Shown: positions 1,185 to 44,762 of the stretch, piece by piece
Position numbering within the stretch: position 1 is the first letter of the stretch
Layout of the letters: every line of letters starts with the position of its first letter
Assembly: GCA_002704915.1 (NCBI GenBank)
Contig: PAIP01000033.1
Span: 1 to 64,000 of the forward strand
Origin: Parvularcula sp.
GTDB lineage: Bacteria > Pseudomonadota > Alphaproteobacteria > Caulobacterales > Parvularculaceae
Reading direction: 5' to 3'
DNA: 64,000 nt
Made by a program: the position numbers and the translations under genes
Notes under the pieces: generated by a model
Database searches by the model: none
The model's input: the letters and a program-made list of their open reading frames with translations, nothing else
What the model was told of the DNA's origin: nothing

Positions 1185-2111
1185 CTACGCCGGCGATTGT
1201 TTCGAGGCGCCGGACTTTTTGCCTGGCGTTTCGCAATCCTTGCGCAGCCAGTCGAGAAACAGATCGCGGGAGGCGGAATGCCGGTCTTCGTCCCAGCACA
1301 GGAAAATCGGCGAATGCGTGTCCATGCCTTCGAGCGGGCAGGAGGTTACATCCGCCAGAACCGGCGCGCCCGGCATGTCGAGAGTGATGGTGATCCCGAA
1401 GCCCGCGCGCACGAAGCCGAGCACCGTGTACCATTCTTCCGCTTCCTGCACGATTTTCGGCGAGAACCCGGCGCGAATGCAGAGCGCATTGATCTGGTGG
1501 TGAAGGCCCGGCGCAATCACCGGCTGGAACAGAACGAAAGATTCGTCTTTCAGTTCTTCGGGCGCGATTTTCTTGCGTTTCGCAAGCGGGTGGTTCGACG
1601 GCATAAGCACCACAAAGCGCTGGCGGCCGATGATTTCGCTGCGCAATGATTTTCCGACGCCGATCTCGCGCGTGATGGCGACATCGATCTGTCCGGCGCC
1701 CAAAGCCTCCCATTGCTGGCGCGAATGCATGTCGCGCAGGGTCAGGCCCACATCGGGATATTCCTTGCGAAAGCGCTGGATCGATTGCGGAATGTTGGTG
1801 AGCATCACGCTCGATCCGATAGCGGTGACGATGGCGCCGATCTGGCCGCGCTCCACTAGTCGCGCCTGTTCCACGGCGGTTTCGAAATCGTTGAGCGCCC
1901 GGCGCCCGGCGTCGACGATCATCCGGCCCGCGGGGGTGAGGCTCACTTTCGGCCGGCGCACGAACAACTCAACGCCGACTGCGCGTTCGATCTGGGCGAG
2001 GCGGGTCGAGAGCTGCGGCTGGCGCATGCCGAGCGTATCGGCGGCGCGTCCGAAATGTAATTCGTTCGCCAGCACCGTCAGAAGGTGAAAATCGCGCGTG
2101 CCGAGGTTCAT
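1185..2111 (-). CDS. LysR-family transcriptional regulator
   Basis: A 308-residue LysR-type regulator. The winged helix-turn-helix covers residues 1-62, with a typical recognition helix (RQPQLSTRLAQIERAVG) and LTPAGR at its end. A periplasmic-binding-protein-like effector domain covers about 90-295. It is divergent from the phosphorylation-dependent carboxylase genes starting at 2284, with 172 nt between the start codons, the classic arrangement for a LysR activator of the neighbouring catabolic operon. The effector is probably the substrate or an intermediate of that pathway (inference). Confidence 0.92.
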   Translation of the reverse strand: MNLGTRDFHLLTVLANELHFGRAADTLGMRQPQLSTRLAQIERAVGVELFVRRPKVSLTPAGRMIVDAGRRALNDFETAVEQARLVERGQIGAIVTAIGSSVMLTNIPQSIQRFRKEYPDVGLTLRDMHSRQQWEALGAGQIDVAITREIGVGKSLRSEIIGRQRFVVLMPSNHPLAKRKKIAPEELKDESFVLFQPVIAPGLHHQINALCIRAGFSPKIVQEAEEWYTVLGFVRAGFGITITLDMPGAPVLADVTSCPLEGMDTHSPIFLCWDEDRHSASRDLFLDWLRKDCETPGKKSGASKQSPA

Positions 2112-2283: not shown

Positions 2284-4098
2284 ATGTCAGACAAGCCCGC
2301 CGGCTTTCCCAAACCCAGCTCCGTCAAGGTCGCCGAAGGGACCGAAGCGGCCCAGGCCGCCTATCCCTATTACATGCAGTTCGAACCGGAAGACGATGAT
2401 CGCTTCTGGTTTTACAATTCCATGCACTTCCCGGAGCCCATGCATCATTTCGACATGGTGACGGCGGAGGCGGCCTATTGCGCGCTCGGTTCCTCCAATA
2501 CGCGCGTGCATTCTCTGCCGACGACGCTGGGCATCGATTATCGCGTCATCAATGGCCGCGTTTATATCGGCGGCAATGCGGTGACGGACCCCGCGGAAAT
2601 CGAGCGGCGCACAAAAGAGTTCGAACAGCGCGCGTTTTATTATTACGAACACTGGGAGCGTCTTTACGACCAATGGAAAGACAAGATGAAGACGCTCATC
2701 AAGGATGCGCAGGAGCTGCCGTCGCTTGAACTTCCCGAATTCGAGCCGCTGGAAAACGTGCATGCGGGCAAGGGCGTCGCCTCTAACCATTATCTCCTCG
2801 AGACCTATCAGAAGACGCTCGAGGGTTATTTCCGGATGTGGCACCACCATTTCGAGTTTCTGCTGCTCGGCTATGGCGCCTATATGGTGTTCTTCGATTT
2901 CTGCAAAAAAGCCTTTCCGGAAATCACCGACCAGACCATTGCGCGCATGGTGGCGGGCTTCGAGGCGGAAATCTTCAAGCCCGATGATGAGGTGAAGCGC
3001 CTTGCGCGCAAGGCGGTGGAGCTGGGCCTTGAAGGCAAGTTCGGCGACAATGTTTCCGCCGACGATGTCATCGCGTCACTGGAACAGATGGGCGCGCCGG
3101 GCAAGGAATGGCTCGACGAACTCGAAGAATCCCGCAATCCCTGGTTCAACGTCAATGTGGGCGACGGGTTCTATCACTATCACCGCTCCTGGAATGACGA
3201 TCTATCGCTCCCGTTCTCGGCGATCCCGGGTTACGCCGCGAAGATCAAGGCGGGCGAAAATCTCGACCGGCCCATGGAGCAGCTTCAGGCCGAGCGGCAG
3301 GAATTGATCGAGGGCTATCGCGATCTTCTGTCTACGGATGAAGAGCGCGCCGCCTATGACCAGATGATCGGGCTCGCCTGCCGCGTCTTTCCTTATGTGG
3401 AAGGCCACAAATTCTATTGCGAACACTGGTACACTAATCTCTTCTTCAACAAGATCCGCGAATTCGGGGATCTCCTCGTTAAGAACGACATTATCGACGA
3501 ACAGGAGGACGTATTCCACCTGACCCGCTATGAAGTGGAGCAGGGGATCGTCGATGTGATGACGAGCTGGTCCAACGGCTCCCCGACGCGCGGCGGAAAA
3601 CGTTTCCGCGCCATGGTCGAGGAACGCAAAAAAGCGATTGAGGTCTGGGCCGGCATGGATTCAGCGCCGGCGCTCGGCCCTGTCCCGGACATCATCGACG
3701 ACCCGGCCATCGTCATGCTGTGGGGCATCACCCGGGAAAATCTCGACATCTGGATGAAGGGACCGGCCGACGCTGACTCCAACGAGATCCGCGGGTTTGC
3801 GGCCTCAAGCGGCGTCGTTGAAGGCACGGCCCGCGTCATCAAATCGGTCAAGGAAATCGACCGTCTGAAGGAAGGCGACATCCTAGTCTGTCAGGTGACA
3901 AATCCCACATGGGCGCCGGTCTTCCAGAAAATCGCCGCCGCAGTTTCGGATATTGGCGGGTCCATGAGCCACGCGGCGATTGTCGCGCGCGAATATGGTC
4001 TTCCCGCCGTGGTCGGTACGGGCCAGGCGACGTCGCGCATTGAAGACGGCCAGCGCGTGCGCGTCGACGGCGCGCGCGGCGTCGTGACATTGTTGTAG
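2284..4098 (+). CDS. PEP-synthase-like phosphotransfer subunit, AcvA / phenylphosphate synthase subunit 1 type
   Basis: 604 residues from the ATG at 2284, which has a strong ribosome site; the upstream in-frame ATG at 2191 has none. The C-terminal 90 residues form the mobile PEP-utilising phosphohistidine domain: GGSMSHAAIVAREYGLPAVV places the catalytic histidine at residue 563. The middle and N-terminal parts lack both the ATP-grasp and the PEP-binding barrel of PEP synthase. Length and histidine position match subunit 1 (70 kDa) of Thauera phenylphosphate synthase, and the gene company matches the acetovanillone-activating kinase of SYK-6 (Acv) and Rhodococcus (Hpe). The expected role is transfer of a phosphoryl group from phosphohistidine to the phenol hydroxyl of acetovanillone or 4-hydroxyacetophenone. 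The letter within acvABCDEF is assumed from gene order. Confidence 0.82.
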   Translation: MSDKPAGFPKPSSVKVAEGTEAAQAAYPYYMQFEPEDDDRFWFYNSMHFPEPMHHFDMVTAEAAYCALGSSNTRVHSLPTTLGIDYRVINGRVYIGGNAVTDPAEIERRTKEFEQRAFYYYEHWERLYDQWKDKMKTLIKDAQELPSLELPEFEPLENVHAGKGVASNHYLLETYQKTLEGYFRMWHHHFEFLLLGYGAYMVFFDFCKKAFPEITDQTIARMVAGFEAEIFKPDDEVKRLARKAVELGLEGKFGDNVSADDVIASLEQMGAPGKEWLDELEESRNPWFNVNVGDGFYHYHRSWNDDLSLPFSAIPGYAAKIKAGENLDRPMEQLQAERQELIEGYRDLLSTDEERAAYDQMIGLACRVFPYVEGHKFYCEHWYTNLFFNKIREFGDLLVKNDIIDEQEDVFHLTRYEVEQGIVDVMTSWSNGSPTRGGKRFRAMVEERKKAIEVWAGMDSAPALGPVPDIIDDPAIVMLWGITRENLDIWMKGPADADSNEIRGFAASSGVVEGTARVIKSVKEIDRLKEGDILVCQVTNPTWAPVFQKIAAAVSDIGGSMSHAAIVAREYGLPAVVGTGQATSRIEDGQRVRVDGARGVVTLL

Positions 4099-4135
4099 AA
4101 GGCGATGCAGACTTTCCCAAACACAATCCCCGATT

Positions 4136-4247
4136 ATCCCGGCGAAGGCCGGGATCCAGCGAAGGATAATGACGGGCGAAGCCCGACTTTGTTTCATGGA
4201 CTGGACCCCGGCCTTCGCCAGGGTGATCGGAGAGAAATCCAGTCATA
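4136..4247. repeat. Mosaic palindromic intergenic repeat
   Basis: The hairpin ATCCCGGCGAAGGCCGGGAT at 4136-4155 is followed by a second half-copy, CCCCGGCCTTCGCCAGGG, near 4205-4223. This is a common dispersed alphaproteobacterial repeat type. It sits inside the operon between the two kinase subunit genes, so it may stabilise or attenuate the transcript. Confidence 0.6.
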
Positions 4248-4285
4248 GTCGCAATGAGCAGAATTCAAGCGTGTCGCTAAAGCAT

Positions 4286-5341
4286 ATGAGCAAAGAAGAA
4301 AACATTTCATGGTTCGCCGATATCGGCCTTTCCGACCGTCCCAGCGTCGGCGGCAAGGGCGGCAGCCTCGGCGAGCTGACCAAAGCCGGCATCGATGTGC
4401 CGCCGGGTTTTGTCGTCAGGACCGAGGCTTTCGAGCGCTTCATCCGGAAACTCGACAAGGAAGAGCCCTTGCGCGCGCCTGTGGAAGCGCTCGATCCGGA
4501 CGATCTTGAAAAGGTCGGCGCGGTAACGAAAGCGATCCGTGAGCGGATTGAAAACGAACCCATGCCGGCGGAAGTCGAAAACGATATCAAGGCGGCCTAC
4601 AAGGAACTTTGCGGCGACGATGCGAAATCGCCCGTAGCGGTGCGGTCGTCGGCGACCACCGAAGACGCCGAGGATGCGTCCTTCGCCGGGCTTCAGGACA
4701 CTTATCTCTGGGTTCTAGGCGCCGATGAAACGTTGAACATGGTGCGAAGCTGTTGGGCGTCGCTCTATTCCGTTGAGTCCGTCTGCTATCGCCGCCGTCA
4801 GAATTTTCCCGAAGACGGCGTCGCCATGGGCGTTGTCGTCCAGAAGATGGTCGATGCGCGCACGGCGGGGGTCATGTTCACCAGAAGCCCCACCACGGGC
4901 GACAAATCGGTGATCACCATTGAGGGCGCCTGGGGGCTCGGCTCCGCCGTCGTTTCCGGCGAAGTGACGCCCGACCGCTGGGTTGTCGCGAAACTCACCG
5001 GCGAAATCACGACGCGCGACATCTCCAACAAACATATCAGGCAATCGCCCAAGGAGGGCGGAGGCATTGAGGATGTTGAACTGCCGGAGGCCGAGCGCAC
5101 GGCGCCGTGCCTCAGTGATGACGAACTCATCCAACTGAAAGACATCGGCCGCAAAACCGAAAAACATTACGGAAAGCCGCAGGACATTGAATGGGCCGTC
5201 GAGAACGGCTCGGGCAAGATCCTGCTTTTGCAAAGCCGGCCGGAAACGGTCTGGTCGGCCAAAGACAAGGCGCCGGTGGCCGAGGCGCAGGACAATCCCA
5301 TGAAGCATGTGATGAATATTTTCGGCGGGAAGCGGTCGTAA
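4286..5341 (+). CDS. PEP/pyruvate-binding ATP-grasp subunit, AcvB / phenylphosphate synthase subunit 2 type
   Basis: 351 residues, corresponding only to the N-terminal ATP-binding part of PEP synthase/PPDK: GGKGGSLGELTKAG near residue 20, RSSATTEDAEDASFAGLQ near residue 125, GVMFTRSPTTGD near 195, and a terminal LLLQSRPETVW. It should phosphorylate the histidine of the preceding protein using ATP. Together the two genes reconstitute a split dikinase, with the same size split as phenylphosphate synthase (about 40 kDa for subunit 2). Start choice is uncertain: ATG 4286 has a weak ribosome site and an in-frame GTG at 4271 is possible. The biotin carrier gene starts 4 nt after its stop. Confidence 0.82.
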   Translation: MSKEENISWFADIGLSDRPSVGGKGGSLGELTKAGIDVPPGFVVRTEAFERFIRKLDKEEPLRAPVEALDPDDLEKVGAVTKAIRERIENEPMPAEVENDIKAAYKELCGDDAKSPVAVRSSATTEDAEDASFAGLQDTYLWVLGADETLNMVRSCWASLYSVESVCYRRRQNFPEDGVAMGVVVQKMVDARTAGVMFTRSPTTGDKSVITIEGAWGLGSAVVSGEVTPDRWVVAKLTGEITTRDISNKHIRQSPKEGGGIEDVELPEAERTAPCLSDDELIQLKDIGRKTEKHYGKPQDIEWAVENGSGKILLLQSRPETVWSAKDKAPVAEAQDNPMKHVMNIFGGKRS

Positions 5342-5345
5342 GACG

Positions 5346-5804
5346 ATGAGCAATGATCTTCCGCTAAGCCCCGAAGACGTCGAGGAAATCGCCTCGATTC
5401 TTTCGAAGTCGTCTTATGATGTTCTCGACATCGAAACGGCGCGGTTCCGCCTTCGCGTGAAACGGTCCGGCGACGGCTTCACCCAGGAATGGACGCCCAT
5501 TGGCGGGGACGCGAAGGAAGTCGCCTCCGCCGTCGAACCGGAAGTCGCGGCGGAAGAGGACGGCTTGCTCGTCATCAAGCCGCCGCTGCCGGGGACGTTC
5601 TATCGCGCGCCGCAGCCGGGCGCGCCGCCCTTTGTGGAAGTCGGCTCGAAAGTCAAAGCCGACACGGTGGTCGCCATCATCGAAACCATGAAGCTGATGA
5701 ACCCGGTCCATGCGGGCGTCGAGGGCGAGATCGTGGAGATCATTCCCGAAAACGCCGAGGCCATCGAGGCGACGACGGTGTTGATGAAGGTGAAACCGGC
5801 GTGA
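5346..5804 (+). CDS. Biotin carboxyl carrier protein
   Basis: 152 residues. The C-terminal biotinyl domain (about 75-152) carries ETMKLMNPVHAG, with the biotin acceptor lysine at residue 116 (Thr replaces the usual Ala of A-M-K-M). The N-terminal part and an acidic, alanine-rich linker (about residues 57-72) resemble AccB. Its location between kinase and biotin carboxylase genes indicates that it is dedicated to this pathway and not to acetyl-CoA carboxylase. It should shuttle carboxybiotin between the biotin carboxylase and the carboxyltransferase that follow. Confidence 0.92.
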   Translation: MSNDLPLSPEDVEEIASILSKSSYDVLDIETARFRLRVKRSGDGFTQEWTPIGGDAKEVASAVEPEVAAEEDGLLVIKPPLPGTFYRAPQPGAPPFVEVGSKVKADTVVAIIETMKLMNPVHAGVEGEIVEIIPENAEAIEATTVLMKVKPA

Positions 5805-5828
5805 CTTTTGTTGTCTATGGTTTCTTCT

Positions 5829-5972
5829 CTTCCCCCGCGTGCGGGGGAAGTGCCGAGCCCTGGAGGGGCGAGGCGATGGGGGTGTTTTGGTGTTTGAAAG
5901 TCACCCCCTCCGTCGTTCCGGTCGCTGAGCGACCGGCCCGACACCTCCCCCGCGCAAGCGCAGGGGAGGAGA
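5829..5972. repeat. Composite palindromic intergenic repeat
   Basis: Three hairpins: CTTCCCCCGC-gt-GCGGGGGAAG (5829-5850), CCGGTCGCT-g-AGCGACCGG (about 5920-5938), and CCTCCCCCGCGC...GGGGAGG (about 5944-5969). The second half matches the layout at 1-50. Its terminal GGGGAGGAGAAG overlaps the ribosome-binding position of the next gene, so the repeat may supply that gene's Shine-Dalgarno. Confidence 0.65.
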
Positions 5973-5985
5973 AGTGAGCGCATCA

Positions 5986-7344
5986 ATGCCAGATCTCACG
6001 CGCCGCCATATCAACACCCTCTTCATCGCCAATCGCGGCGAGATCGCGCTGCGCGTTATTCGCACGGCGAAGCGGCTCGGCATGAAGACGGCGCTGGGCG
6101 TCTCCGATGCGGATGCAAATTCTCGCGGCGCGGCGGAGGCCGATCACGTGGTGCGGCTCGGTCCGGCGCCGTCATCGCAATCCTATCTCAATATCGAGAA
6201 AGTCGTCGCCGCGGCGAAAGAGGCGGGCGCCGATGCGGTGCATCCGGGTTACGGCTTTCTGTCGGAGAATATCAAATTTGCGCGGGCCGTCGCGGACGCA
6301 GGGATGATTTTCGTCGGTCCCGATCCGGAGGCGCTCGACGCCATGGGCGACAAGCTGAAAGCGCGCCATGTGGCGATCGAGGCCGGCTTGCCTGTCGTCC
6401 CCGGCGGTGAGGCCGAAACGGCGGAAGACGCCGCGAAGATCGCCGACAAGACCGGCTATCCGCTGTTGATCAAGGCCGTTTCCGGCGGCGGCGGACGCGG
6501 CATGAAGCGCGTCGACAAGCCGGAAGATCTGAAAAGCCAGATCGGATACGCCATGTCGGAGGCCGAGGCCGCCTTTGGCGACCCGCGTATTTATGTGGAG
6601 CGGTTTATCGCGAGCGGGCGCCATGTGGAGGTGCAGGTGATTGGCGACGGGACGCGCGCCATCCATCTCGGCACGCGCGACTGTTCGATCCAGCGTCGGT
6701 TTCAGAAACTCGTCGAAGAAGCCCCGGCGCCGAACATTCCGGACGATAAACACCGCGCCATTGAAAATGCGGCGGTGAAACTCGCCGAGCACCTGCATTA
6801 CAAAGGCGCAGGGACGGTCGAGTTTCTTGTCGACGCCGAAACCTTCGATTTCTATTTCCTCGAAATGAATGCGCGCATTCAGGTGGAGCATCCTGTGACC
6901 GAAGAAGTGACCGGCGTCGATATTGTCGAACAGCAATTGCTGATCGCCAGCGGTGCGCCGCTTGGCTACGAACAGCGCGATATCGAATTTCTCGGCGCCG
7001 CAATTGAAGTGAGGATCAACGCCGAAGACCCGGACGCCGATTTCCGGCCCTCGCCGGGGCTCGTCGCAAAAGCCGAATGGCCGGCGGGCGAGGGCGTGCG
7101 CGTGGATACCCATATCCGCAGCGGCGATACGATCCCGCCCACCTACGACTCGCTCATGGGCAAGCTGATCGTTCACGGGGCGACGCGCGAGGAAGCGGTC
7201 GCCCGCATCGCCGCCGCACTCAATCGGTTGAATGTCGAGGGCGTCAAAACCACGGCGCCGCTGCATGCCCGGGTCATGCAGGATGCGCGCTTCAAGAAGG
7301 GCGGCGTCGACACGCGATTTTTCGAAGGACTAAAGCATGGCTGA
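5986..7344 (+). CDS. Biotin carboxylase subunit
   Basis: About 452 residues, an AccC-type biotin carboxylase that makes carboxybiotin from bicarbonate and ATP. It shows the N-terminal FIANRGEIALRVIRTAKRLG, the ATP-grasp glycine loop SGGGGRGMK near residue 165, EMNARIQVEHPVTEEVTG near 290, and the C-terminal biotin-carboxylase domain. The start is ambiguous: GTG 5974 lies only 3 nt after GGAGGA, while ATG 5986 is 15 nt away; I prefer the ATG by family comparison. The stop overlaps the carboxyltransferase start by 8 nt, indicating coupled translation. It probably works with the preceding carrier protein on the phosphorylated acetophenone. Confidence 0.9.
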   Translation: MPDLTRRHINTLFIANRGEIALRVIRTAKRLGMKTALGVSDADANSRGAAEADHVVRLGPAPSSQSYLNIEKVVAAAKEAGADAVHPGYGFLSENIKFARAVADAGMIFVGPDPEALDAMGDKLKARHVAIEAGLPVVPGGEAETAEDAAKIADKTGYPLLIKAVSGGGGRGMKRVDKPEDLKSQIGYAMSEAEAAFGDPRIYVERFIASGRHVEVQVIGDGTRAIHLGTRDCSIQRRFQKLVEEAPAPNIPDDKHRAIENAAVKLAEHLHYKGAGTVEFLVDAETFDFYFLEMNARIQVEHPVTEEVTGVDIVEQQLLIASGAPLGYEQRDIEFLGAAIEVRINAEDPDADFRPSPGLVAKAEWPAGEGVRVDTHIRSGDTIPPTYDSLMGKLIVHGATREEAVARIAAALNRLNVEGVKTTAPLHARVMQDARFKKGGVDTRFFEGLKHG

Positions 7345-8815
7345 CATCAAGCTCGTCGATGTGTCGATCCGCGACGGCAACCAGTCGCTCTGGGGCGCCA
7401 CGGGTCTCAATACCGCGCAGATTCTCGAAATCGCCGGCGCCATGGAGCGCGTCGGCTTTCACACCTGCGATTTCACGTCGTCGACGACCATGGCGGTCGC
7501 GATCCGTTATTTTAAGAACAATCCGTGGGAGCGGATCAAGCGCATGCGCGCGGCGATGCCGAGCGTGCCCTTGCAGTTCATCACCACGGGGCTGCGCTTC
7601 GTGGCGTGGCAGCAGGCGGACCCGGAATTTATGCGGCTTGCCTATCGCCGCTTGCAGATGGCGGGCATTCGCCGCTTCATCGTGCTCGACCCCATGCATG
7701 ACGCTGACGCCGTGATTGAGGCGGCGCGCATCATCAAGGAGGAGGGCGACGCGGATGTCATGGGAGCGCTCACCTTCACGCTTTCCGATATCCATACGGA
7801 TGAATTTTACGCCGAGTTTGCCGGTAAGCTCGCCAAAAGCAATCATGTCGATCTGTTTTACCTGAAAGACCCGAGCGGGCTGATGTCGCCGGACCGGGTG
7901 CGGACCCTGGCGCCGGCGGTGAAAGCCGCCATCGGCGCCAAGCCGCTGGAGATTCACGCGCACTGCACCATCGGTTATGGGCCCTTGACCTCGCTCGCCG
8001 GCGCCGATCTGGGGATCATTGACGCGGTGCATGTGGGCGTCGGTCCGCTCGGCGACGGGTCGTCCCTGCCCGAGGCGACGCGCATGGTGGCGAACCTGCG
8101 CGAGGCTGGCCACACCGTCGACGTCAATGACAAGGCGCTGGCGACGGTGAAGGACTATTGGACCCGGTTGGCGACGGCGGAAGGGCTGCCCTTCGGCAAG
8201 CCGCAGAGCTTCGACGCCAGTTTCCTCAGGCACCAGATTGCCGGCGGCGTGATGACCACGACCAAACGCCAGCTTGAGGAGCTCAATCTCGGCCATAAAT
8301 TCAATGAGGTGATAGAAGAAACAGAGCGCGTGCGCGCGGAGCTCGGCTATCCCATTATGGTGACGCCGTTCCCGCAAATGGTGATGAGCCAGGCGCTGTT
8401 TAACGTCATCGGCACGAAGCGTTACGGCCAGGTCTCCGATCAGGTGATCCGCTATGTCATGGGCAAGTTCGGACGGCCGACCAGTCCCGTCGATGACGCG
8501 GTCAAACAGACCATTCTCGACCGCCCACGCGTGAAAGAGCTGGAAGTCGAGCCCATGTTTCCGGCCTATAAGGATCTGCGCAAACAGTTCGGCGAAAACA
8601 TGGACGATGAAGAGTTCCTGTTCCGCGCGGTGATGCCGGAGGAGCAGGTGGACGCCATGCTGGCGGCTGGCCGCAGCAGGGCGACTTATACGCCGGAAGC
8701 GGCGCCCATCTTCAACTTGCTGAAACAGCTCGCGGCGCGTCCCGATGCGCCGGACATTGCCGTGGAGCGTCCCGGCTTCCGCATGGCGCTCTATAAAGGA
8801 GCGAGCCTTGCCTAA
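7337..8815 (+). CDS. Carboxyltransferase subunit, HMGL-like (pyruvate carboxylase/oxaloacetate decarboxylase family)
   Basis: 492 residues. The N-terminal TIM barrel of the HMG-CoA-lyase-like family has VSIRDGNQSLWGATG at about residues 8-22, with the metal/substrate Asp and Gln, and IHAHCTIGYGPLTSLAGAD near 212, with the metal-binding HxH. The C-terminal PYC/OADA region follows and no fused biotinyl domain is present, consistent with a separate carrier at 5346. In pyruvate carboxylase this domain carboxylates a methyl ketone, which fits carboxylation of the acetyl methyl of an acetophenone to give an aroylacetate. It overlaps both neighbours by 8 nt. Confidence 0.87.
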   Translation: MADIKLVDVSIRDGNQSLWGATGLNTAQILEIAGAMERVGFHTCDFTSSTTMAVAIRYFKNNPWERIKRMRAAMPSVPLQFITTGLRFVAWQQADPEFMRLAYRRLQMAGIRRFIVLDPMHDADAVIEAARIIKEEGDADVMGALTFTLSDIHTDEFYAEFAGKLAKSNHVDLFYLKDPSGLMSPDRVRTLAPAVKAAIGAKPLEIHAHCTIGYGPLTSLAGADLGIIDAVHVGVGPLGDGSSLPEATRMVANLREAGHTVDVNDKALATVKDYWTRLATAEGLPFGKPQSFDASFLRHQIAGGVMTTTKRQLEELNLGHKFNEVIEETERVRAELGYPIMVTPFPQMVMSQALFNVIGTKRYGQVSDQVIRYVMGKFGRPTSPVDDAVKQTILDRPRVKELEVEPMFPAYKDLRKQFGENMDDEEFLFRAVMPEEQVDAMLAAGRSRATYTPEAAPIFNLLKQLAARPDAPDIAVERPGFRMALYKGASLA

Positions 8816-9653
8816 AGAATTGATCGACGCCGAAGGCTTTGTCTTTGACATGGACGGCACGCTGGTGCTCGGCGACAAGGCGAGCGCGGGCCAGAAGGCG
8901 CTGCCCGGCGCAGTGGAAACGCTTGAGCTTTTGCGCGAGCGCGGCGTGCCCTATCAGATCTTCACGAACGGCACGGCGCGCACGCCCGAATGGTATGCGA
9001 ATGCGATGCGGGCCACAGGGCTCGATGTGCGCGACGAAGAGTTCATGACGCCGTCCACCGCCGCTGCGCACTATCTCAAAGACAAGGGCGCCGGGCGCAT
9101 TCTGGTCCTCGGCAGGGAGCCGGTTTGGAAACCGCTCGCCGATCTCGGCCTCGATGTGGTCGAATCCCCCGGTGACGGCGGCACTTATGACGCGATCTAT
9201 GTGGGCTGGTTCCGCGAATTCACCTTTCCGGATCTGGAAGCGGCGACGCATGCGATATGGGCCGGCGCGAAGCTGACGACAGCGTCTGACGTCCCGTTCT
9301 TCGCCGCGGCCGGCGCCGATAAACGCGGCATCGGCACGAGCTTCGCGATCAACGCCATGTTGAAGGCGCTGACCGGGGCCGAAGCGCATGTCCTCGGCAA
9401 GCCCTCGCTCGATGCGCTCCAGGTCGCAAAGTCCCGCATGGGGCTATCCCCAGATGCGCGCATTGTCGTTGTCGGCGACGATCCGCAGCTTGAACCGAAA
9501 ATGGCAAATCTTGGCGGCGCCTATTCCGTGGGCGTGACCACCGGCATTTATGACGAGGCGGCGTTCGCTTCCCGCGAAGATCCGTCGGAACGCCCGGCCC
9601 TCTTGCTTTCCGGGATCGACAAGCTAGCGGCGCTGCTTCGCGAAGGGGCGTGA
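8808..9653 (+). CDS. acvF: HAD-family phosphatase (NagD-like), AcvF type
   Basis: 281 residues starting at TTG 8808, chosen because AAGGAG lies 6 nt upstream; the only in-frame ATG (8745) is deep inside the previous gene. HAD motif I is FDMDGTLV (Asp14 and Asp16), motif II is FTNGT, a GKPSLD lysine lies near residue 205, and VVGDDPQLE is motif IV. The TIGR01460/NagD cap type is likely. In the acetovanillone pathway AcvF removes the phosphate from the aryl phosphate intermediate, and the gene's position directly after the carboxyltransferase with an 8-nt overlap supports that role. Exact substrate is inferred. Confidence 0.8.
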   Translation: MPKELIDAEGFVFDMDGTLVLGDKASAGQKALPGAVETLELLRERGVPYQIFTNGTARTPEWYANAMRATGLDVRDEEFMTPSTAAAHYLKDKGAGRILVLGREPVWKPLADLGLDVVESPGDGGTYDAIYVGWFREFTFPDLEAATHAIWAGAKLTTASDVPFFAAAGADKRGIGTSFAINAMLKALTGAEAHVLGKPSLDALQVAKSRMGLSPDARIVVVGDDPQLEPKMANLGGAYSVGVTTGIYDEAAFASREDPSERPALLLSGIDKLAALLREGA

Positions 9654-9844: not shown

Positions 9845-10714
9845 ATGATCGATCTCGACAAGATCAAAGCCATCGACATTCACACCCATGCGGAGGTCTC
9901 GTGCAACGATCCCGAAGACCCGATCATGGGCAAGTTCCTCGACGCTGCGTCGACTTATTTCAAGGCGGACCGCAAGCGTCCTACCATTCCTGAAACCATC
10001 GAATATTACCGCGAACAGCAGATCGCCTTCGTGATGTTTACGGTGGACATGGAGTCCGGCACGGGCATCAAGCGCATCCGCAATGAAGAGATCGCCGAGT
10101 TTGCAAACGACAACAGCGACATCATGATGGCTTTCGCGTCCATCGACCCGCACAAGTCGAAATTCGGCGCCATCGAGGCGCGGCGCATGATCGAGGATTA
10201 CGGCGTCAAGGGCTTCAAGTTCCATCCGCCGATCCAGAACTTCCACCCCTATGATCCCATGGCCTGGCCGATCTATGAAGTGATCGCGGAGTACAAATTG
10301 CCGGCGATCTTTCACACCGGCCATTCGGGCATGGGCACGGGCATGAAAGGCGGCGGCGGCATCCGTCTCAAATACGGCCAGCCCATGATGGTGGACGATG
10401 TGGCGGTCGATTTCCCCGATATGAAAATCATTCTCGCGCACCCGTCCTGGCCGTGGACGGATGAATCGCTTTCCATGGCGCTCCATAAGGAGAATGTTTA
10501 CATCGACCTCTCCGGCTGGTCGCCGAAATATTTCCCGAAACAGGTGATCGCCGATGCGAATACGCGGCTGAAACACAAAATGCTGTTCGGCTCCGACTTC
10601 CCGCTGATCAAGCCGGACAAATGGATGGCGGCGGCTGAAACCGCCGGTTTCCGCGAAGAAGTGATGCCGCTCATCATGAAAGAAAACGCGGCGAAGCTTC
10701 TCGGACTGAAATGA
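9845..10714 (+). CDS. Amidohydrolase-2 family protein (hydrolase or decarboxylase)
   Basis: 289 residues of the ACMSD/amidohydrolase-2 TIM-barrel family. Metal-site motifs visible are DIHTHAE near residue 11, FKFHPP near 119, IFHTGHSG near 155, HPSWPW near 199 and GSDFPLI near 247. Members of this family decarboxylate or hydrolyse aromatic acids and lactones. It is clearly more distant from LigW than the amidohydrolases at 34005 and 40461, so a hydrolase role is equally possible. It overlaps the following SDR by ATGA and thus shares its operon with a LigF-like GST. Confidence 0.8.
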   Translation: MIDLDKIKAIDIHTHAEVSCNDPEDPIMGKFLDAASTYFKADRKRPTIPETIEYYREQQIAFVMFTVDMESGTGIKRIRNEEIAEFANDNSDIMMAFASIDPHKSKFGAIEARRMIEDYGVKGFKFHPPIQNFHPYDPMAWPIYEVIAEYKLPAIFHTGHSGMGTGMKGGGGIRLKYGQPMMVDDVAVDFPDMKIILAHPSWPWTDESLSMALHKENVYIDLSGWSPKYFPKQVIADANTRLKHKMLFGSDFPLIKPDKWMAAAETAGFREEVMPLIMKENAAKLLGLK

Positions 10715-11499
10715 CCGGCGTCAGCCTGAAAGACAAACGCATCATCGTCACCGGCGCCTCGACCGGAATCGGCGCGGCGGCGGCGGAGATCATGGGCTCT
10801 CTGGGCGGGAAAGTGCTCGTCGCGGCGCGCTCCGAAGACAAGCTGAAAGCCGTCGCAGAAAAGGTGACGAACGCCGGCGGGGAGGGCCAGTCTTTCGCCG
10901 CCGATATGGCGAAAGAAGAAGACATCAACGCGCTTGTCGACAAGGCCAATGAGTTATGGGGCGGTGTCGATGGAGTGTTCGCCAATGCGGGCATCGGCGG
11001 CGCGGGCGCGCCCTTCGCCGACTATCCCCTTGAAACTTTCGATCACATGATGAACGTCAATCTCAGATCGATGTTCATTTTATTGAAGCGCGTCCTGCCG
11101 GGCATGATTGCGCAAGGCGCAGGATCGATCGTCTGCACCGGCTCCCTTGCATCTGAACAGGGGTTTCCCATGAACCCGGCCTATGTGGTCTCGAAGCATG
11201 GCGTTCTCGGTCTTGTCCGGGCCATCGCGGCTGAACATGCGCAAAATAATATCCGGGCCAATTGCCTGCTGCCGGGGCTGATCCACACCCCCATGTTCGA
11301 TGCGCTCGCCGACGCTGTGGCCGGCGGCGACATCGAGGCGGCGCTGAAAGGCATGGCGCGGCTCGTGCCCCAGGGCCGGGTGGGAACGCCGGAAGAAGCG
11401 GGATGGATGGCCGCTTTCCTGCTGACCGACGCGGCGCGCTATGTGAATGCGCAGGGAATCGCCGTCGATGGCGGCGTCCTCGGCGTGCAGCCAGTATGA
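10711..11499 (+). CDS. Short-chain dehydrogenase/reductase (SDR)
   Basis: 262 residues, classical SDR: GASTGIGAAAAEIMG cofactor loop near residue 12, NAGIGGAG near 90, catalytic Ser near 140, Y-x-x-x-K in PAYVVSKHG near 158, and a typical C-terminal NAQGIAVDGG. It is translationally coupled (ATGA) to the amidohydrolase and 7 nt before the LigF-like GST gene. In lignin ether catabolism an SDR oxidises the alpha-carbinol before the GST cleaves the ether. Here the sequence is FabG-like and not LigD-like, so the substrate is open. Confidence 0.85.
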   Translation: MTGVSLKDKRIIVTGASTGIGAAAAEIMGSLGGKVLVAARSEDKLKAVAEKVTNAGGEGQSFAADMAKEEDINALVDKANELWGGVDGVFANAGIGGAGAPFADYPLETFDHMMNVNLRSMFILLKRVLPGMIAQGAGSIVCTGSLASEQGFPMNPAYVVSKHGVLGLVRAIAAEHAQNNIRANCLLPGLIHTPMFDALADAVAGGDIEAALKGMARLVPQGRVGTPEEAGWMAAFLLTDAARYVNAQGIAVDGGVLGVQPV

Positions 11500-11506
11500 G
11501 AATGAT

Positions 11507-12271
11507 ATGACGCTCAAGCTCTATCACGCCGAACCGGTCGCCAATTCGCTGAAATCGGTCATCCCGTTGCATCAGCGCGGCATCCCGTTCGAAAGCGTTT
11601 ACGTCGATCTTCACAAATTCGAACAGCATGAGCCGTGGTTCGTCGCCCTCAATCCGGAAGGACAGGTGCCGGTTCTCGATCATGACGGGACGATCATCAC
11701 GCATTCGACGGTGATCAACGAATATCTCGAAGACGCCTTTCCCGATTATCCGCCGCTGCGCCCCGCAGACCCGGTTGGCCGCGCGCGGATGCGCTACTGG
11801 AACAAGTTCGTCGACGAGCATGTCATGAACTATGTCTCCATGCATGGCTGGAACCGGCTCATCTCGGTGATCGCACGCAATATCGAAAGCGGCGATTTTG
11901 AGAAACTGATGGAGCGCATTCCGCTGCCCGATCAGCGCAGGAAATGGATGAATGCGCGCTCGGGCTTCACCGAAGAACAGCTCGCCCATGCGACAGAGAA
12001 AGTCGCATACGCCGTCGACAAGGTAGAGAAGCATTTAAGCGAGAACGAATGGTTCGCCGGCGGCATGTTCTCGCTCGCCGACATCAATTTCTATTCCCAT
12101 TGCGGGGTCATGGTGGAGCGCATGTTCCCCGATATGGATGTCGCCAATCGCGCGCCTAACCTGGTCGCATGGCGCGACCGGGTGACGGCGCTGCCCGGCG
12201 TTGCGAAAGCGCTTGCCGGACCGGACAAGACCGACCCGCGCCTGCGGACCTTTACAGGCGAGGCGCGATAG
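11507..12271 (+). CDS. LigF-like glutathione S-transferase (probable beta-etherase)
   Basis: 254 residues. The thioredoxin-like N-domain begins MTLKLYHAEPVANSL, followed by KFEQHEPWF, NPEGQVPVLDHDG and STVINEYLEDAFP (GSH gamma-Glu binding). This series closely parallels remembered LigF of SYK-6. The helical C-domain runs from about 90 to 245. LigF enzymes use glutathione to break the beta-O-4 aryl ether of alpha-keto lignin dimers, releasing guaiacol-type phenols and a GSH adduct. It ends an operon with an amidohydrolase and an SDR. LigF-family identity is fairly secure; stereospecificity and true activity are not readable. Confidence 0.82.
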   Translation: MTLKLYHAEPVANSLKSVIPLHQRGIPFESVYVDLHKFEQHEPWFVALNPEGQVPVLDHDGTIITHSTVINEYLEDAFPDYPPLRPADPVGRARMRYWNKFVDEHVMNYVSMHGWNRLISVIARNIESGDFEKLMERIPLPDQRRKWMNARSGFTEEQLAHATEKVAYAVDKVEKHLSENEWFAGGMFSLADINFYSHCGVMVERMFPDMDVANRAPNLVAWRDRVTALPGVAKALAGPDKTDPRLRTFTGEAR

Positions 12272-12620: not shown

Positions 12621-13505
12621 CTACTCTTCCCAGCGCGGCTCTTCGCCCATGGCGACTTTTGAGGAATTCACCAAGAGGAAGCCGTCAAGGACGTCAATGC
12701 TGTCGGGATAGGCTTCTTCGACCATGGCGCGCAGCTCTTCACTGTTCTTCGCCTTTCGGGTTGCGTCCAGCCAGAAATCGATGAACCCGCCCGTATAGGC
12801 GAGGCTTGAGGCGTCATTGGGCATGCCGGGTTTCGCATGACCGGGAACGACAATTTCAGGCTCCAGGGCGGTGAGGTCGTCAACGGCCTCGCCCCAGGCG
12901 CGGGTTTCTTTTCGTCCGTGCTCGCCGAGCCAGAGATACATTTCGTTGAAGAGAAGATCGCCCGCGAAAAGGGCGCCGATGGAAGGAGCGTAAAGCGCCG
13001 TCGCATGAACATGATCGCCCTGCATGGGGCCTAGCACTTTCAATTCATGGCCTTCGAGCATGATCACATCACCGTCGAGCGCCGCCGGCGCGGTGGGCGT
13101 TTTCGGGCCGTTGTCGCCCAGCATCGGGCTCCAGCGTTTCACCTTGAAGGGCAGGGAACGCCAGATGTCTTCGACGACCGTCGGATGCGCAACGACTTTT
13201 GCATTGGGGAAGGCGTTAGTGAGCACCTCCATCGCAAAGAAATGGTCGGGATGGTCATGCGTGACGAAGATGGTCTCGAGTTCCTTGCCGCTGTCGAGCA
13301 CCATGGCCGCGGCGCGATGGGCGTCGGCCATGGTGAAAGGCGGATCGACCAGCACGGCTTTTTCCTCGCCCTTGATCAGGACCACATTGGCGTAAAGGGA
13401 GCCGGCGCTGGTCTGAAGGACTTCAACTTCAAGCGGCGCATCCTGCGCGAAGGCAGGCGATGCAAAAAAGACAAGCGCGGCGAGCGCGCGGGTGAAAAGT
13501 TTCAT
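12621..13505 (-). CDS. Exported metallo-beta-lactamase-fold hydrolase
   Basis: 294 residues from ATG 13505, preceded by GGGAGGACATC. A signal peptide of about 20 residues (MKLFTRALAALVFFASPAFA) implies export to the periplasm. The zinc-site motif THDHPDH gives His83, His85, Asp87 and His88; a further His lies in VPGHAKPGM. The fold is generic (esterase, lactonase, lactamase). It is the last gene of a minus-strand run of alcohol dehydrogenases and cupins, so an ester or lactone of a lignin-derived compound is plausible but unproven. It starts 51 nt after the SDR stop. Confidence 0.82.
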   Translation of the reverse strand: MKLFTRALAALVFFASPAFAQDAPLEVEVLQTSAGSLYANVVLIKGEEKAVLVDPPFTMADAHRAAAMVLDSGKELETIFVTHDHPDHFFAMEVLTNAFPNAKVVAHPTVVEDIWRSLPFKVKRWSPMLGDNGPKTPTAPAALDGDVIMLEGHELKVLGPMQGDHVHATALYAPSIGALFAGDLLFNEMYLWLGEHGRKETRAWGEAVDDLTALEPEIVVPGHAKPGMPNDASSLAYTGGFIDFWLDATRKAKNSEELRAMVEEAYPDSIDVLDGFLLVNSSKVAMGEEPRWEE

Positions 13506-13556
13506 GATGTCCTCCCTCTCTGCGGTCATCGCCGCAGTCTTTTTGGCAATGGCCAA

Positions 13557-14306
13557 TCAGATGGCCGTTTGGCCCCCGTCGACGACAATGACAGCGCCAT
13601 TGGTGAAGCTTGCTTCGTCGGAACAAAGATGCAGAACCGGGCCCGCCATTTCCTCCGGCGCCGCGGGGCGGCCGATGGGCGAGGTGGGCAGGAAGGCTTC
13701 CAGAAAACCTTCGCGATGAAACCACGGTTCTGTCATGGGCGTGCGGACGAAGCCGGGGCAAAGCGCGTTCACGCGCACGCCCTGTTTCGCATATTCGATG
13801 GCCGCCGTGCGGGTCAGCCCGATTACGCCATGTTTGGAGGCGATGTAAGGGGCCATGCCCGGATTGGCGATCACGCCGCCCACGGAGGACGTGTTGAGGA
13901 TCGCGCCTTTGCCCTGTTTCACCATGACGGGCAGTTCCGCCTTCATGCACAGGAACACGCCTTTGAGGTTGATGGCGATGGTGCGGTCGAACGTCTCCTC
14001 GTCGAAATCCGCGAACATCTGTTCGGGCGGAAAGACGCCGGCATTGTTGAAGGCGGCGTCGAGCCCGCCATGGGCTTTCACCGCGGCGTCCACAAGCGCA
14101 TTCACCTCGTCGCTTTTGGAAACGTCGCAAGGACGGAACGCGGCGGTTCCGCCGTCGCCCTTGATTTCGGCGACGACCTCTTCGGCGGCGTCATTGTAAT
14201 CGCCGATCATCACCTTCGCGCCTTCCCGGGCGAAAGCGAGGGCGGCGGCGCGGCCGATGCCTGTCGCGGCGCCGGTGACCAGAACGGATTTGCCTTCATA
14301 GCGCAT
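13557..14306 (-). CDS. SDR family oxidoreductase
   Basis: 249 residues, classical SDR: VTGAATGIGRAAALAFAREG near residue 8, NNAGVFPPE near 88, APYIASKHGVIGL with the Y-x-x-x-K active site near 154, and a C-terminal NGAVIVVDGG. It follows the zinc alcohol dehydrogenase gene by 3 nt, as part of the cupin/alcohol dehydrogenase operon reading leftward from 18761. It probably oxidises a secondary alcohol or reduces a ketone among side-chain intermediates (inference from context). Confidence 0.88.
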   Translation of the reverse strand: MRYEGKSVLVTGAATGIGRAAALAFAREGAKVMIGDYNDAAEEVVAEIKGDGGTAAFRPCDVSKSDEVNALVDAAVKAHGGLDAAFNNAGVFPPEQMFADFDEETFDRTIAINLKGVFLCMKAELPVMVKQGKGAILNTSSVGGVIANPGMAPYIASKHGVIGLTRTAAIEYAKQGVRVNALCPGFVRTPMTEPWFHREGFLEAFLPTSPIGRPAAPEEMAGPVLHLCSDEASFTNGAVIVVDGGQTAI

Positions 14307-14309
14307 GGA

Positions 14310-15317
14310 TCAGCCTTTCGGGTTGATCAGCACCTTGCATTGATGGGTGCGTTTTTTGAGCGATTCAAAAACCTCCGGCACCGCGTCGAGGCTGATCGTG
14401 TCGGTAATAAGCGCGCGCGGCTCGGCCGCCCCGGCGTCGAGCGCGTCGAGCGCCGCTTCATATTCCTGGCGCTTGAAAAAGGCGGAAGTCTGGATGCGGA
14501 CCTCTTTCGAGAGCGCCACGAACGGAACGAAGGTTTCGGGCCGCGTGCACAGGCCGAGCACGAGCACCGTGCCTTTGACGCGCACCTGATTGACCGCCTG
14601 CGGAATAAGGCCAGGAACGCCGACACATTCATAGACAATGTCCGCCTTGCCGCCGAGCGCGTGTTCGGCGGCGCCGACAGGGTCTTCTATGTCGACGATG
14701 AAGTCGGTGGCGCCCATCCGGCGGGCGCGTTCTTCCTGATAGCGGTTGATGTCCTGCACCACGACCCGCGAGGCGCCGAAGCGGCGCGCCCAGAAGGCGA
14801 CGCCGAGGCCGATGGGGCCGGCGCCGAGGATCAGCACGTTGTCGCCGGGTTTTTGCTCGCCCATCATCACGCCATGAAGGGCGACGGCGAGGGGCTCTAT
14901 GATGGCGCCGTCGGCCATGCTCGCGGATTTCGGCAAGGCGACGCACTGATTTTCATTGGTGACGGCGAACTCGCCATAGCCGCCGCCCTGCAGATACATT
15001 TTCTCGCACCAGGCGGGCTCGCCTGCGAGACAGCTCGGGCATTTGCCGCAGCTTGCGATGGGGACGACGGAAACGAGGTCGCCTTTTTTAAGGCGCTCGA
15101 CGCCCTTGCCGAGATCGATCACTTCGCCGGCGAATTCATGGCCAAGGACGGCGCCCTTGTCGACGCCGAAGGCGGGATCTTCGGTCATGTGAAGATCGGA
15201 GCCGCAAATCCCGCAGCGCCCGACCGAGAGCACAACCTCGCCGGCGCCGGGCGCAGGATCGGCGATGTTCTCAATCGCGAGCTTTTGATGAAGCCCCTGG
15301 TGAACGACCGCGCGCAT
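14310..15317 (-). CDS. Zinc-dependent alcohol dehydrogenase (MDR), sorbitol/threonine-DH-like
   Basis: 335 residues. Catalytic zinc ligands: Cys35 in GRCGICGSD and His60-Glu61 in LGHEFAG. The structural zinc lobe is complete, with four cysteines in ASCGKCPSCLAGEPAWC. The Rossmann loop is ILGAGPIGLGVAFWARRFG. It is a zinc-dependent NAD(P) dehydrogenase acting on polyol-like or secondary alcohols. It starts 3 nt after the previous gene's stop and so is cotranscribed with it and with the cupins. Confidence 0.88.
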   Translation of the reverse strand: MRAVVHQGLHQKLAIENIADPAPGAGEVVLSVGRCGICGSDLHMTEDPAFGVDKGAVLGHEFAGEVIDLGKGVERLKKGDLVSVVPIASCGKCPSCLAGEPAWCEKMYLQGGGYGEFAVTNENQCVALPKSASMADGAIIEPLAVALHGVMMGEQKPGDNVLILGAGPIGLGVAFWARRFGASRVVVQDINRYQEERARRMGATDFIVDIEDPVGAAEHALGGKADIVYECVGVPGLIPQAVNQVRVKGTVLVLGLCTRPETFVPFVALSKEVRIQTSAFFKRQEYEAALDALDAGAAEPRALITDTISLDAVPEVFESLKKRTHQCKVLINPKG

Positions 15318-15320
15318 GTG

Positions 15321-16442
15321 TCAGCCTTCCGCGCCGATCCGCAGGACGGGTTTTACGACGGACCCGTTTTCGCTTGCGGCCACGGCCTCATTGATTTGAT
15401 GGAAGTCGAAATAGCCGATCAATTTTTCGAACGGGAATTTTCCTTCGAGGTGATAGCCGATCAGCTCCGGCAGAAAGGTTTTAAGATCGCTGTCCCCGCC
15501 GAGAATGCCCATCACCCGGCGCCCGCCGCCCATAAAGGCCGCTTCATTGAAAGTGAGATCGTCTTCCGGGTCGGAGGCGCCGACAATGCCGCAAACGCCT
15601 TTCGGCGCCAGCAGGCTCCATGCGTCTTCGATCACCTTGTTGAGGCCAGTCGTATCGAGCACGTAGCCCAGCCCTTCGGGACACAGCTCCTGAATTTTGG
15701 CGTTTGCGTCATTCTTAGCGTTAAACGCATGAGTTGCGCCCAGCTCTTTCGCCATCGCCAGGCGGTCGTCATTAACGTCGACGGCGATGATCGGATCGGC
15801 GCCGGCGATTTTCGCCGCCATGATCGCGGCCATGCCCACAGTTCCGGCGCCGAAGACGCCGATGGGCAGGCCGGCTCGCACCTTCATGCTGCGCAACACG
15901 GCGCCCGCGCCGGTCATGAGGCCGCAGCCGAGCGGGCAAAGCCGCTCCAGCGGCAGATCGGCCGCTTCGTCCGGCACGCGGACCGTATTGCGTTCGTGAG
16001 AAATCACCTGTGTCGCAAAACTCGACTGGCCGAAGAAATTGGCGTTCAGTTTTTCGCCATTGCGCCTCAGCGTCGGCGAGCCGTCCGCGCGCACGCCCGT
16101 CCAGTTATGCGGGAAGAAATTATAGCAATAGGTCGGCGCATCGATCTCGCAGTTCGGGCAGTCGCCGCAACTGTTGAAGCTGAGGATCACCCGGTCGCCC
16201 GGTTTCGCTGTCGTCACCGCCGAGCCGACCGCTTCGACAATTCCGGCGCCTTCATGACCGAGAACGGCGGGAAGGGGGACCGGCAATTGCTGGTCGCGCA
16301 CCGCCATATCCGTATGACAGACGCCGCACGCGACAATGCGCACCTGCAATTCGTCGGGCCGCAACGCATCGAGCGTCACGTCCTCGATGGTGAAGGGCTC
16401 GTCGGACCCGCGGCAGATGGCGGCTTTCGCATGAACGGACAT
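15321..16442 (-). CDS. Aryl-alcohol-type zinc dehydrogenase
   Basis: 373 residues. Catalytic zinc ligands Cys39 (ACGVCHTD) and His63 (LGHEGAG); structural lobe cysteines in NSCGDCPNCEIDAPTYC; Rossmann loop GVFGAGTVGMAAIMAAK. Architecture and motifs resemble benzyl/aryl-alcohol dehydrogenases (XylB-like, class III-like length). A role in oxidising a lignin-derived benzylic or allylic alcohol to the aldehyde is likely. Its ATG abuts the stop of the upstream SDR (TAA then ATG with no gap), so translation is probably coupled. Confidence 0.87.
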   Translation of the reverse strand: MSVHAKAAICRGSDEPFTIEDVTLDALRPDELQVRIVACGVCHTDMAVRDQQLPVPLPAVLGHEGAGIVEAVGSAVTTAKPGDRVILSFNSCGDCPNCEIDAPTYCYNFFPHNWTGVRADGSPTLRRNGEKLNANFFGQSSFATQVISHERNTVRVPDEAADLPLERLCPLGCGLMTGAGAVLRSMKVRAGLPIGVFGAGTVGMAAIMAAKIAGADPIIAVDVNDDRLAMAKELGATHAFNAKNDANAKIQELCPEGLGYVLDTTGLNKVIEDAWSLLAPKGVCGIVGASDPEDDLTFNEAAFMGGGRRVMGILGGDSDLKTFLPELIGYHLEGKFPFEKLIGYFDFHQINEAVAASENGSVVKPVLRIGAEG

Positions 16443-17267: not shown

Positions 17268-17270
17268 GGC

Positions 17271-17804: not shown

Positions 17805-17816
17805 TTGCGGTCCTCC

Positions 17817-18224: not shown

Positions 18225-18227
18225 GGC

Positions 18228-18761: not shown

Positions 18762-18844
18762 GGAGCTTCTCCTCAAATTTACCGAAAACGCGCCTTTCCG
18801 CTTTTTACGGCATGGCGGGGCGAAAGACACGCGTCAAACAGAAA

Positions 18845-18868
18845 TGGCGGGACCCGAAGGTCCCGCCA
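18845..18868 (-). terminator. Rho-independent terminator of the TonB receptor gene
   Basis: A perfect 10-bp stem TGGCGGGACC / GGTCCCGCCA around the stable CGAA (TTCG on the minus strand) tetraloop. It is followed on the minus strand by ATTTCTGTTT. It lies 19 nt after the receptor stop and before the cupin operon. Confidence 0.8.
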
Positions 18869-18886
18869 GGGGCGTTCATGGGAAGG

Positions 18887-37601: not shown

Positions 37602-37611
37602 GCCGGCGCAA

Positions 37612-44739: not shown

Positions 44740-44762
44740 GTCGAAGGTCCTTGAGCGAGCAA

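Follow-up and report, generated by a model that had tools for sequence, protein, structure and literature searches.

A putative Acv/Hpe-type operon for 4-hydroxyaryl methyl ketones in Parvularcula sp. with dikinase and carboxylase genes of different kinship

We analysed a window of 64,000 nucleotides from Parvularcula sp. (contig PAIP01000033.1 of GCA_002704915.1, positions 1 to 64,000), which is part of contig 35 (90,322 bases) in a 4.5 Mb assembly. Between 2284 and 9653 lie six consecutive, intact genes, all on the plus strand, which a first-pass annotation made by a model had read as a phosphorylation-dependent acetophenone carboxylation operon; the families and residues that it named were found. 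The first two genes encode a dikinase in two parts, namely a subunit of 604 residues like AcvA and HpeH (2284–4098) with the swivel domain and the phosphohistidine His563 (PF00391, PEP-utilizers mobile domain, 3e-25), and an ATP-grasp subunit of 351 residues like AcvB and HpeI (4286–5341; PF01326, PPDK_N, 8e-108). They are followed by a biotin carboxyl carrier protein (BCCP) of 152 residues with the biotin residue Lys116 (5346–5804; PF00364, Biotin_lipoyl, 1e-15), a biotin carboxylase (BC) of 456 residues with a GTG start (5974–7344; PF00289, PF02786 and PF02785, Biotin_carb_N and _C), a carboxyltransferase (CT) of the pyruvate-carboxylase type with 492 residues (7337–8815; PF02436, PYC_OADA, and PF00682, HMGL-like) and a HAD phosphatase like HpeD and AcvF (8808–9653; PF13344, Hydrolase_6, 3e-24, above the cut-off). 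From this sequence we read the six genes, with high confidence, as a predicted Acv/Hpe-type catabolic operon for 4-hydroxyaryl methyl ketones (acetovanillone and/or 4-hydroxyacetophenone).

Because ATG 2284 of the acvA-like gene and its ribosome site GGAGGAAA are both kept in the close relatives L021 and L022 (loci gathered for comparison carry L numbers), a longer open reading frame (ORF) from GTG 2191 is probably not the gene. The acvB-like gene most likely starts at 4286 rather than at the ORF start 4169, and the phosphatase gene probably at TTG 8808, 3' of AAAGGAG. The BC and CT genes overlap by 8 bases. The spacer between the acvA- and acvB-like genes is 187 bases long and holds two inverted copies of one G+C-rich repeat of 21 bases (4139–4221); the homologous spacer of Marinicaulis flavus, of about 20 bases, is too short for it.

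The catalytic residues expected of these families are in place. The motif SDIGGSMSH of the window AcvA ends at His563 and fits the T/SXXGGXXXH pattern given for the large subunit of two-part dikinases (PMC12167813). H563 and M561 are invariant in all 38 aligned rows, window included; as in the hpe-type pattern, a methionine stands where the regulatory threonine would be. In the carrier, Lys116 lies within ETMKLMN, and E113, M115, K116 and L117 do not vary among 37 rows (again with the window). D13 and H207 of the CT are present in 39 of 39 rows and K177 and H209 in 38, the exception being the distant L020; these four residues are the presumed metal ligands. Among the general NCBIfam models the CT came nearest to pyruvate carboxylase subunit B, with 278 bits under a cut-off of 402, and pyruvate carboxylases are its best solved relatives in the PDB, the list of best matches there containing no hpe or acv transferase by name. 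The phosphatase matched the HAD-IIA model TIGR01460 at 3e-27 and 95.9 bits, slightly below the cut-off of 100.15. For AcvB the best PDB match was 9goj (E 2.5e-81; 45% over 332 residues), a chain that is 97% identical to the ATP-grasp (beta) subunit of L013, a plasmid cluster of Rhodococcus sp. JS3073; its length and this match to an hpe-like cluster suggest that 9goj is HpeI.

How far the six genes belong together was judged from related kinase loci. A kinase scan of the named genome collection gave AcvA relatives in at least 560 of at least 592 pattern matches, from which the best 80 were kept (SYK-6 is not among them); their sources include Sphingomonadales, other Alphaproteobacteria, metagenome-assembled genomes (MAGs) of Gammaproteobacteria, and Acidobacteriota. 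Nineteen of the 80 end within 5.6 kb after acvA, and the 61 with at least 5.6 kb were used for the counts. In 29 loci all five other genes occur in the 8.5 kb after acvA, read in the same direction and ordered as in the window; 28 have all but the BC gene within 8.5 kb (L032, L033, L040, L041, L045 and 23 others), and the remaining four have other sets. Both kinase genes, carrier, CT and phosphatase are thus found in 57 of the 61 loci with room. Since 29 of 61 related kinase loci keep all five other genes downstream in the same strand and order, the six-gene arrangement is far beyond chance. The form lacking BC is found repeatedly among Erythrobacteraceae and Acidobacteriota MAGs and is presumably served by another biotin carboxylase.

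These counts also bear on a different reading of the kinase pair as a phenylphosphate synthase or cresol kinase (Pps/Cre) that happens to adjoin an ordinary pyruvate or acyl-CoA carboxylase. The size split of the dikinase is indeed that of phenylphosphate synthase, as first proposed, and AcvA has homologues in Azoarcus (L014, 44%) and R. ruber (L016, 42%). We nevertheless regard this reading as highly improbable: kinase and CT stand together in 29 complete and 28 BC-less clusters of the 61, the window AcvA groups with that of SYK-6 and is distant from L014 and L016, and UbiD-type phenylphosphate carboxylase genes, which follow the kinase pair in L014, were absent from the 50 window ORFs scanned. 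Phenylphosphate carboxylation itself was ruled out on that last count. A pyruvate or geranyl-CoA carboxylase is likewise disfavoured, as the CT stays clustered with the dikinase, which speaks against a housekeeping role. Kinship solely to such carboxylases and to pyruvate dikinases, the outcome that the first-pass annotation had named as fatal to its proposal, was not what we found.

The proteins were then compared with those of the two studied ketone systems. HpeHI is a two-part dikinase that phosphorylates acetovanillone and 4-hydroxyacetophenone (HAP) (PMC9618137, PMC12167813), HpeCBA carboxylates only the phosphorylated ketones and HpeD dephosphorylates (PMC9618137); acvABCDEF is syntenous with hpe and essential to growth of SYK-6 on acetovanillone (PMC9618137). 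In cluster L013 the genes stand in an hpe-like order, and next come a ligase and an amidohydrolase gene, like hpeEF. The window proteins, from AcvA to AcvF, are 45, 45, 58 (over 62 residues only), 52, 42 and 37% identical to those of L013. Against L119 (genome G451), which we take to be the SYK-6 acv cluster, the values are 73, 67, 41, 55, 53 and 42%. In both comparisons the genes stand in the same order and, at the level of families, the composition is the same, as had been anticipated. In L013 itself (13262–16436) homology gives the order carrier, BC, CT, whereas Table 1 of PMC9618137 labels hpeB the carboxyltransferase and hpeA the biotin carboxylase.

The presumed likeness to SYK-6 Acv held for the dikinase half, whereas the carboxylase half is closest elsewhere. 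For the window CT, identity reaches 75 and 72% with plasmid-borne counterparts in Novosphingobium humi (L101) and Sphingomonas bisphenolicum (pBAR1, L102), as against 53% with SYK-6. The kinase of these clusters is a UPF0261 (Tm-1-like) protein, recognised by Pfam match in L102 and in Pseudomonas putida YC-AE1 (L103) and by similarity in L101, and the window's genome has no match to this family (PF06792). A UPF0261-related chain of 406 residues in the PDB (9mpy) suggests that the plasmid kinase is probably MarK, which is described as a single-component kinase of N. aromaticivorans (PMC13101465). Locus L097 (10001–21438) holds both a dikinase and a UPF0261-like protein (32%) in one cluster.

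Trees were built by quick searches on 34 hand-picked shared loci with extras, out of 73 CT and 88 AcvA length-filtered sequences including the window. For AcvA (38 rows), the tree nests L021, L022, L023 and the window within the SYK-6 type (29 rows, support 100), whereas in the CT tree (39 rows) the same four join L101 and L102 (6 rows, support 100). The BC, BCCP and HAD trees agree with the CT tree, grouping the window lineage with L101 and L102 at supports of 100, 99 and 98, and in the HAD tree L023 lies outside the group of the window lineage. The AcvB tree agrees with that of AcvA. Keeping the bearers of the SYK-6-type kinase together in the CT tree cost 125 log units and was rejected by the approximately unbiased (AU) test (p-AU 4e-66); in the AcvA tree, moving the window lineage out of the SYK-6 type cost 37 log units and was also rejected (p-AU 3e-4). 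Judged by these trees, the operon is a mosaic of a SYK-6-type dikinase and a carboxylase–phosphatase module whose nearest kin, outside its own lineage, sit in clusters with a UPF0261 kinase. The simplest account would be a replacement of the kinase upstream of the biotin-carrier gene, for which we infer the direction of exchange. Kinases of two Pfam families thus serve closely related carboxylases, which would let kinase swaps address what the kinase must recognise. Mixed clusters of this kind are unmentioned in the titles and abstract beginnings among the matches listed, a scope that leaves out the Acv (Higuchi 2022) and MarK (Hall 2025) papers.

The operon does not end with the phosphatase gene. 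The divergent LysR gene that the first-pass annotation took to complete the unit is present, but the unit runs on into an amidohydrolase-2 gene (9845–10714, plus strand; 289 residues; PF04909, 2e-43) and, overlapping it, a short-chain dehydrogenase/reductase (SDR) gene (10711–11499, plus strand; PF13561, 1e-57). The amidohydrolase is a homologue of HpeF and a candidate for the cleavage of the beta-keto acid. It shares 49% identity with the product of the L013 gene that stands where hpeF would, 57% with a Rhizobium protein (L012) and 66% with that of P. putida (L103), where the homologue closes the cluster. Both genes follow the operon again in L021 and L022, at 93–96% identity for the amidohydrolase and 71–72% for the SDR. 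H13, H15, H157 and D251 are invariant in all 11 rows of the amidohydrolase alignment, and its model (pLDDT 83) has a fold like that of amidohydrolase-2 TIM barrels, among them BB4693 and dihydroxybenzoate decarboxylases; the predicted fold fits the superfamily and leaves the reaction unspecified.

A competing possibility is that the amidohydrolase stands outside the pathway and that cleavage of the keto acid falls to one of three BKACE enzymes encoded elsewhere. The genome has three BKACE matches above the cut-off, one of them beside a GCV_T gene (465 residues) and two cupins, and pBAR1 carries a BKACE and a thioesterase gene 5' of the carboxylase. We consider this unlikely in view of the amidohydrolase homologue in hpeF position of L013, at the end of the L103 cluster and after the operon in L021 and L022. 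HpeF, moreover, is 95% identical to CouO (PMC9618137, Table 1), an amidohydrolase-superfamily enzyme that releases an aromatic acid by deacetylation (PMC4737184). Homologues of HpeE and HpeF are missing from SYK-6 (PMC9618137); VceA and VceB homologues are given as absent from N. aromaticivorans F199 (PMC11837543). The BKACE gene with the GCV_T neighbour lies in what looks like an aryl-ketone locus at about 97–103 kb of contig 70 (L137), with an SDR gene and the two cupins, which are of ChrR type. As for the ligase, a search of the window's own genome with the Rhizobium L012 protein gave one match, at 29%; an AMP-binding ligase of another subfamily is encoded at 51889–53403 and could serve in place of HpeE. 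HpeE-like ligases (at least 35% identity) occur in the fetched flanks of 6 of the 80 kinase loci.

On the other side of the operon, the LysR-type regulator gene (1185–2111, minus strand; 308 residues; LysR_substrate 6e-40, HTH_1 8e-16) is transcribed divergently; L021, L022 and L094 have a homologue (65–72% identity) in the same arrangement. In the spacer between it and the acvA-like gene, 39 bases (2122–2160, with no strand assigned) are nearly unchanged in L021 and L022 and can be made out in L094 as well, although the remaining spacer diverges. This block is a probable LysR operator or promoter, through which the regulator would control the operon. For the flanking regions of the sphingomonad loci, the listed matches include no LysR.

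The genes around the operon speak of lignin. A glutathione S-transferase (GST) gene at 11447–12271 (plus strand), which we regard as context rather than core, encodes a beta-etherase-like protein with LigF as best PDB match (4xt0, 202 bits; next match 67); L021, L022 and L094 have no match listed for it. A second LigF-like GST (156 bits, next 81) and an SDR are encoded at 36711–39230 (36711–37601 and 38394–39230), the SDR matching best the uncharacterised 3ioy (402 bits) and Calpha-dehydrogenases (at most 240 bits). The two GSTs and this SDR are probably beta-aryl ether cleavage genes of a Marinicaulis-type genome. With a lignostilbene dioxygenase (43270–44829; NF053780, 857 bits against a cut-off of 650) and a p-hydroxycinnamoyl-CoA hydratase/lyase (24864–25703; 451 against 276), the neighbourhood is, by its predicted gene content, a lignin island. 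Genes for the lower pathway are also present. The genome has pobA above the cut-off and five LigB-type matches above theirs, and past the window end, at about 68–78 kb of contig 35 (L138), lie LigB, LigA, two amidohydrolase-2, PrpF-like and RraA-like genes. The two amidohydrolase-2 genes would by position be LigI and LigJ, and the whole set is assigned by family to protocatechuate 4,5-cleavage; intradiol dioxygenases (PF00775) were not found in the genome. In SYK-6 the beta-aryl ether route leads to vanilloyl acetic acid (PMC7691349), and AcvABCDEF turns acetosyringone into the analogous keto acid (PMC12911418). As the ether and ketone routes both yield vanilloyl acetic acid or an analogue, they converge on the very compound which the amidohydrolase would cleave.

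This context is relevant to the substrate, which may also be another phenol with a carboxylatable side chain, such as HAP alone or a larger lignin aryl ketone, processed by the same chemistry. Sphingomonas bisphenolicum AO1, Sphingobium yanoikuyae YC-JY1 and P. putida YC-AE1 carry relatives of the carboxylase on plasmids; these strains are presumed degraders of bisphenol A, from which HAP arises. The presence of pobA is in keeping with such a substrate, and HAP is the ketone preferred by HpeCBA (PMC9618137). We hold this alternative to be plausible but somewhat improbable, since the guaiacyl-lignin setting of LigF-like GSTs, lignostilbene dioxygenase and hydroxycinnamoyl-CoA hydratase-lyase suits a methoxylated substrate at least equally well. 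The plasmids L102, L103 and L104 combine a UPF0261 kinase, a biotin carboxylase and a HAD protein with either BKACE and thioesterase or acetoacetate-CoA ligase and amidohydrolase, and likely represent a HAP route.

Several points weigh against the assignment of a mosaic Acv/Hpe-type ketone operon with an HpeF-like cleavage step. The window CT is only 53% (SYK-6) and 42% (hpe) identical to its studied relatives, and the sequence does not distinguish acetovanillone from HAP as substrate. An HpeE-type ligase is not adjacent to the operon, AMP-binding genes being absent from the 20 ORFs scanned in 60–22769, and the amidohydrolase was found in the fetched flank of 7 of the 80 kinase loci, many of these flanks ending at contig ends. 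As for the mosaic, AcvB is tied to SYK-6 at a support of just 72. L103 falls into the wider CT clade (10 rows, support 99), but so do L096, L097 and L100, whose dikinase belongs to another branch. Because this clade mixes dikinase and UPF0261 bearers, kinase type maps uncleanly on the CT tree, and more than one kinase exchange has probably taken place. The AU groups were chosen after the trees had been seen, so that the p-AU values flatter.

Downstream of the operon, a ChrR-type cupin of 177 residues (17271–17804, minus strand) offers a possible side branch. Its function had been guessed, from a Pfam match and its size, before the fold search, in which the Foldseek top hits were 5bpx and 4p9g (2,4'-dihydroxyacetophenone dioxygenase) at 32% identity and E 6e-14; the models are modest, the best having a pLDDT of 73 and three of five lying below 37. 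Relatives of the cupin (64–69% identity) stand between acvA and acvB in 8 of the 80 loci, from seven Acidobacteriota MAGs and one Hyphomonadaceae MAG, and elsewhere in the locus in two more. Histidines 80, 82 and 118 are conserved and could hold iron. The protein is a candidate enzyme for the cleavage of hydroxymethyl aryl ketones into an aromatic acid and formate. A plus-strand ORF over the same region (13047–18890, 1947 residues) was dismissed as most likely a spurious antisense frame, as it has no Pfam match and minus-strand genes of clear families lie opposite.

Taken as an Acv/Hpe-type operon, the six genes would act in the following order. The ATP-grasp subunit would charge His563 of AcvA with the beta-phosphate of ATP, and the swivel domain would carry the phosphate to the phenol oxygen of the ketone. 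The three-part biotin enzyme would then carboxylate the acetyl methyl group, after which the HAD enzyme would strip the phosphate. The resulting aroyl-acetic acid would be split into vanillate or 4-hydroxybenzoate and a C2 unit, most likely with the aid of the HpeF-like amidohydrolase, and the aromatic acid would enter protocatechuate 4,5-cleavage, for which genes lie on the same contig. A bolder and rather doubtful extension is that the kinase is an exchangeable cartridge, a UPF0261 protein having been swapped for the SYK-6-type dikinase, and that the amidohydrolase, working without HpeE, cleaves the free aroyl-acetic acid directly. It would then supply the step missing in strains without VceA and VceB and join the ether and acetovanillone routes at vanilloyl acetic acid, with the cupin opening a side branch for hydroxymethyl ketones. 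The amidohydrolase and the cupin are in any case concrete candidates for pathway steps that the literature leaves open.

The operon has a patchy distribution, given that a close CT or AcvA occurs in few genomes. We searched 40 genomes including the window's own, and among the 39 others (23 of the same genus) a close CT was found in G022 alone, the same-genus Marinicaulis flavus SY-3-19, which has an orthologous operon with a CT of 92% identity. A distant CT in G001, also of this genus (33%), was set aside as another carboxylase. In the class-wide sample, AcvA at E<=1e-80 occurs in 3 of 385 genomes, the window's own being one of them, and in the genus of Sphingobium xanthum AcvA is found in 8 of 94. 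PMC13101465 reports growth on such ketones for four strains or mutants of them and cites a survey in which kinase and carboxylase formed a cluster in 52 of 836 cases. The nearest named relative has a characterised vanillyl-alcohol dehydrogenase (PMC7617285).

The known system nearest to the window in its dikinase is acvABCDEF of Sphingobium lignivorans SYK-6, which agrees in six families, order and orientation and has a dikinase of 73% and 67% identity, whereas its carrier, BC, CT and phosphatase are only 41–55% identical and belong to another clade. The published SYK-6 pathway appears to cleave the keto acid through VceA and VceB (PMC9618137), while the window operon is followed by an HpeF-like gene. 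The hpeHICBADEF cluster of Rhodococcus rhodochrous GD02, represented here by L013, shares the kinase pair, the biotin enzyme, the HAD phosphatase and the HpeF-homologous amidohydrolase; its proteins show 37–52% identity over the greater part of each gene (for the carrier, 58% over 62 residues), and its HpeE ligase is absent beside the window operon. The MarK-type clusters of N. humi, pBAR1 and P. putida YC-AE1 share the carboxylase–phosphatase module, with CT identities of 75, 72 and 58%, the first two in the closest clade of the window CT and the third in the wider one, but their kinase is a single UPF0261 protein, unlike the two-part dikinase of the window. Such a dikinase is in turn common to the window and to the phenylphosphate synthase and carboxylase system (Pps/Ppc) of Azoarcus KH32C (L014; 44% and 46%), where carboxylation relies on Ppc subunits and UbiD-family enzymes and not, as in the window, on a biotin enzyme. 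The kind of operon is therefore already known from Acv and Hpe, and what the window adds is its mosaic make-up and two linked genes, the amidohydrolase and the cupin.

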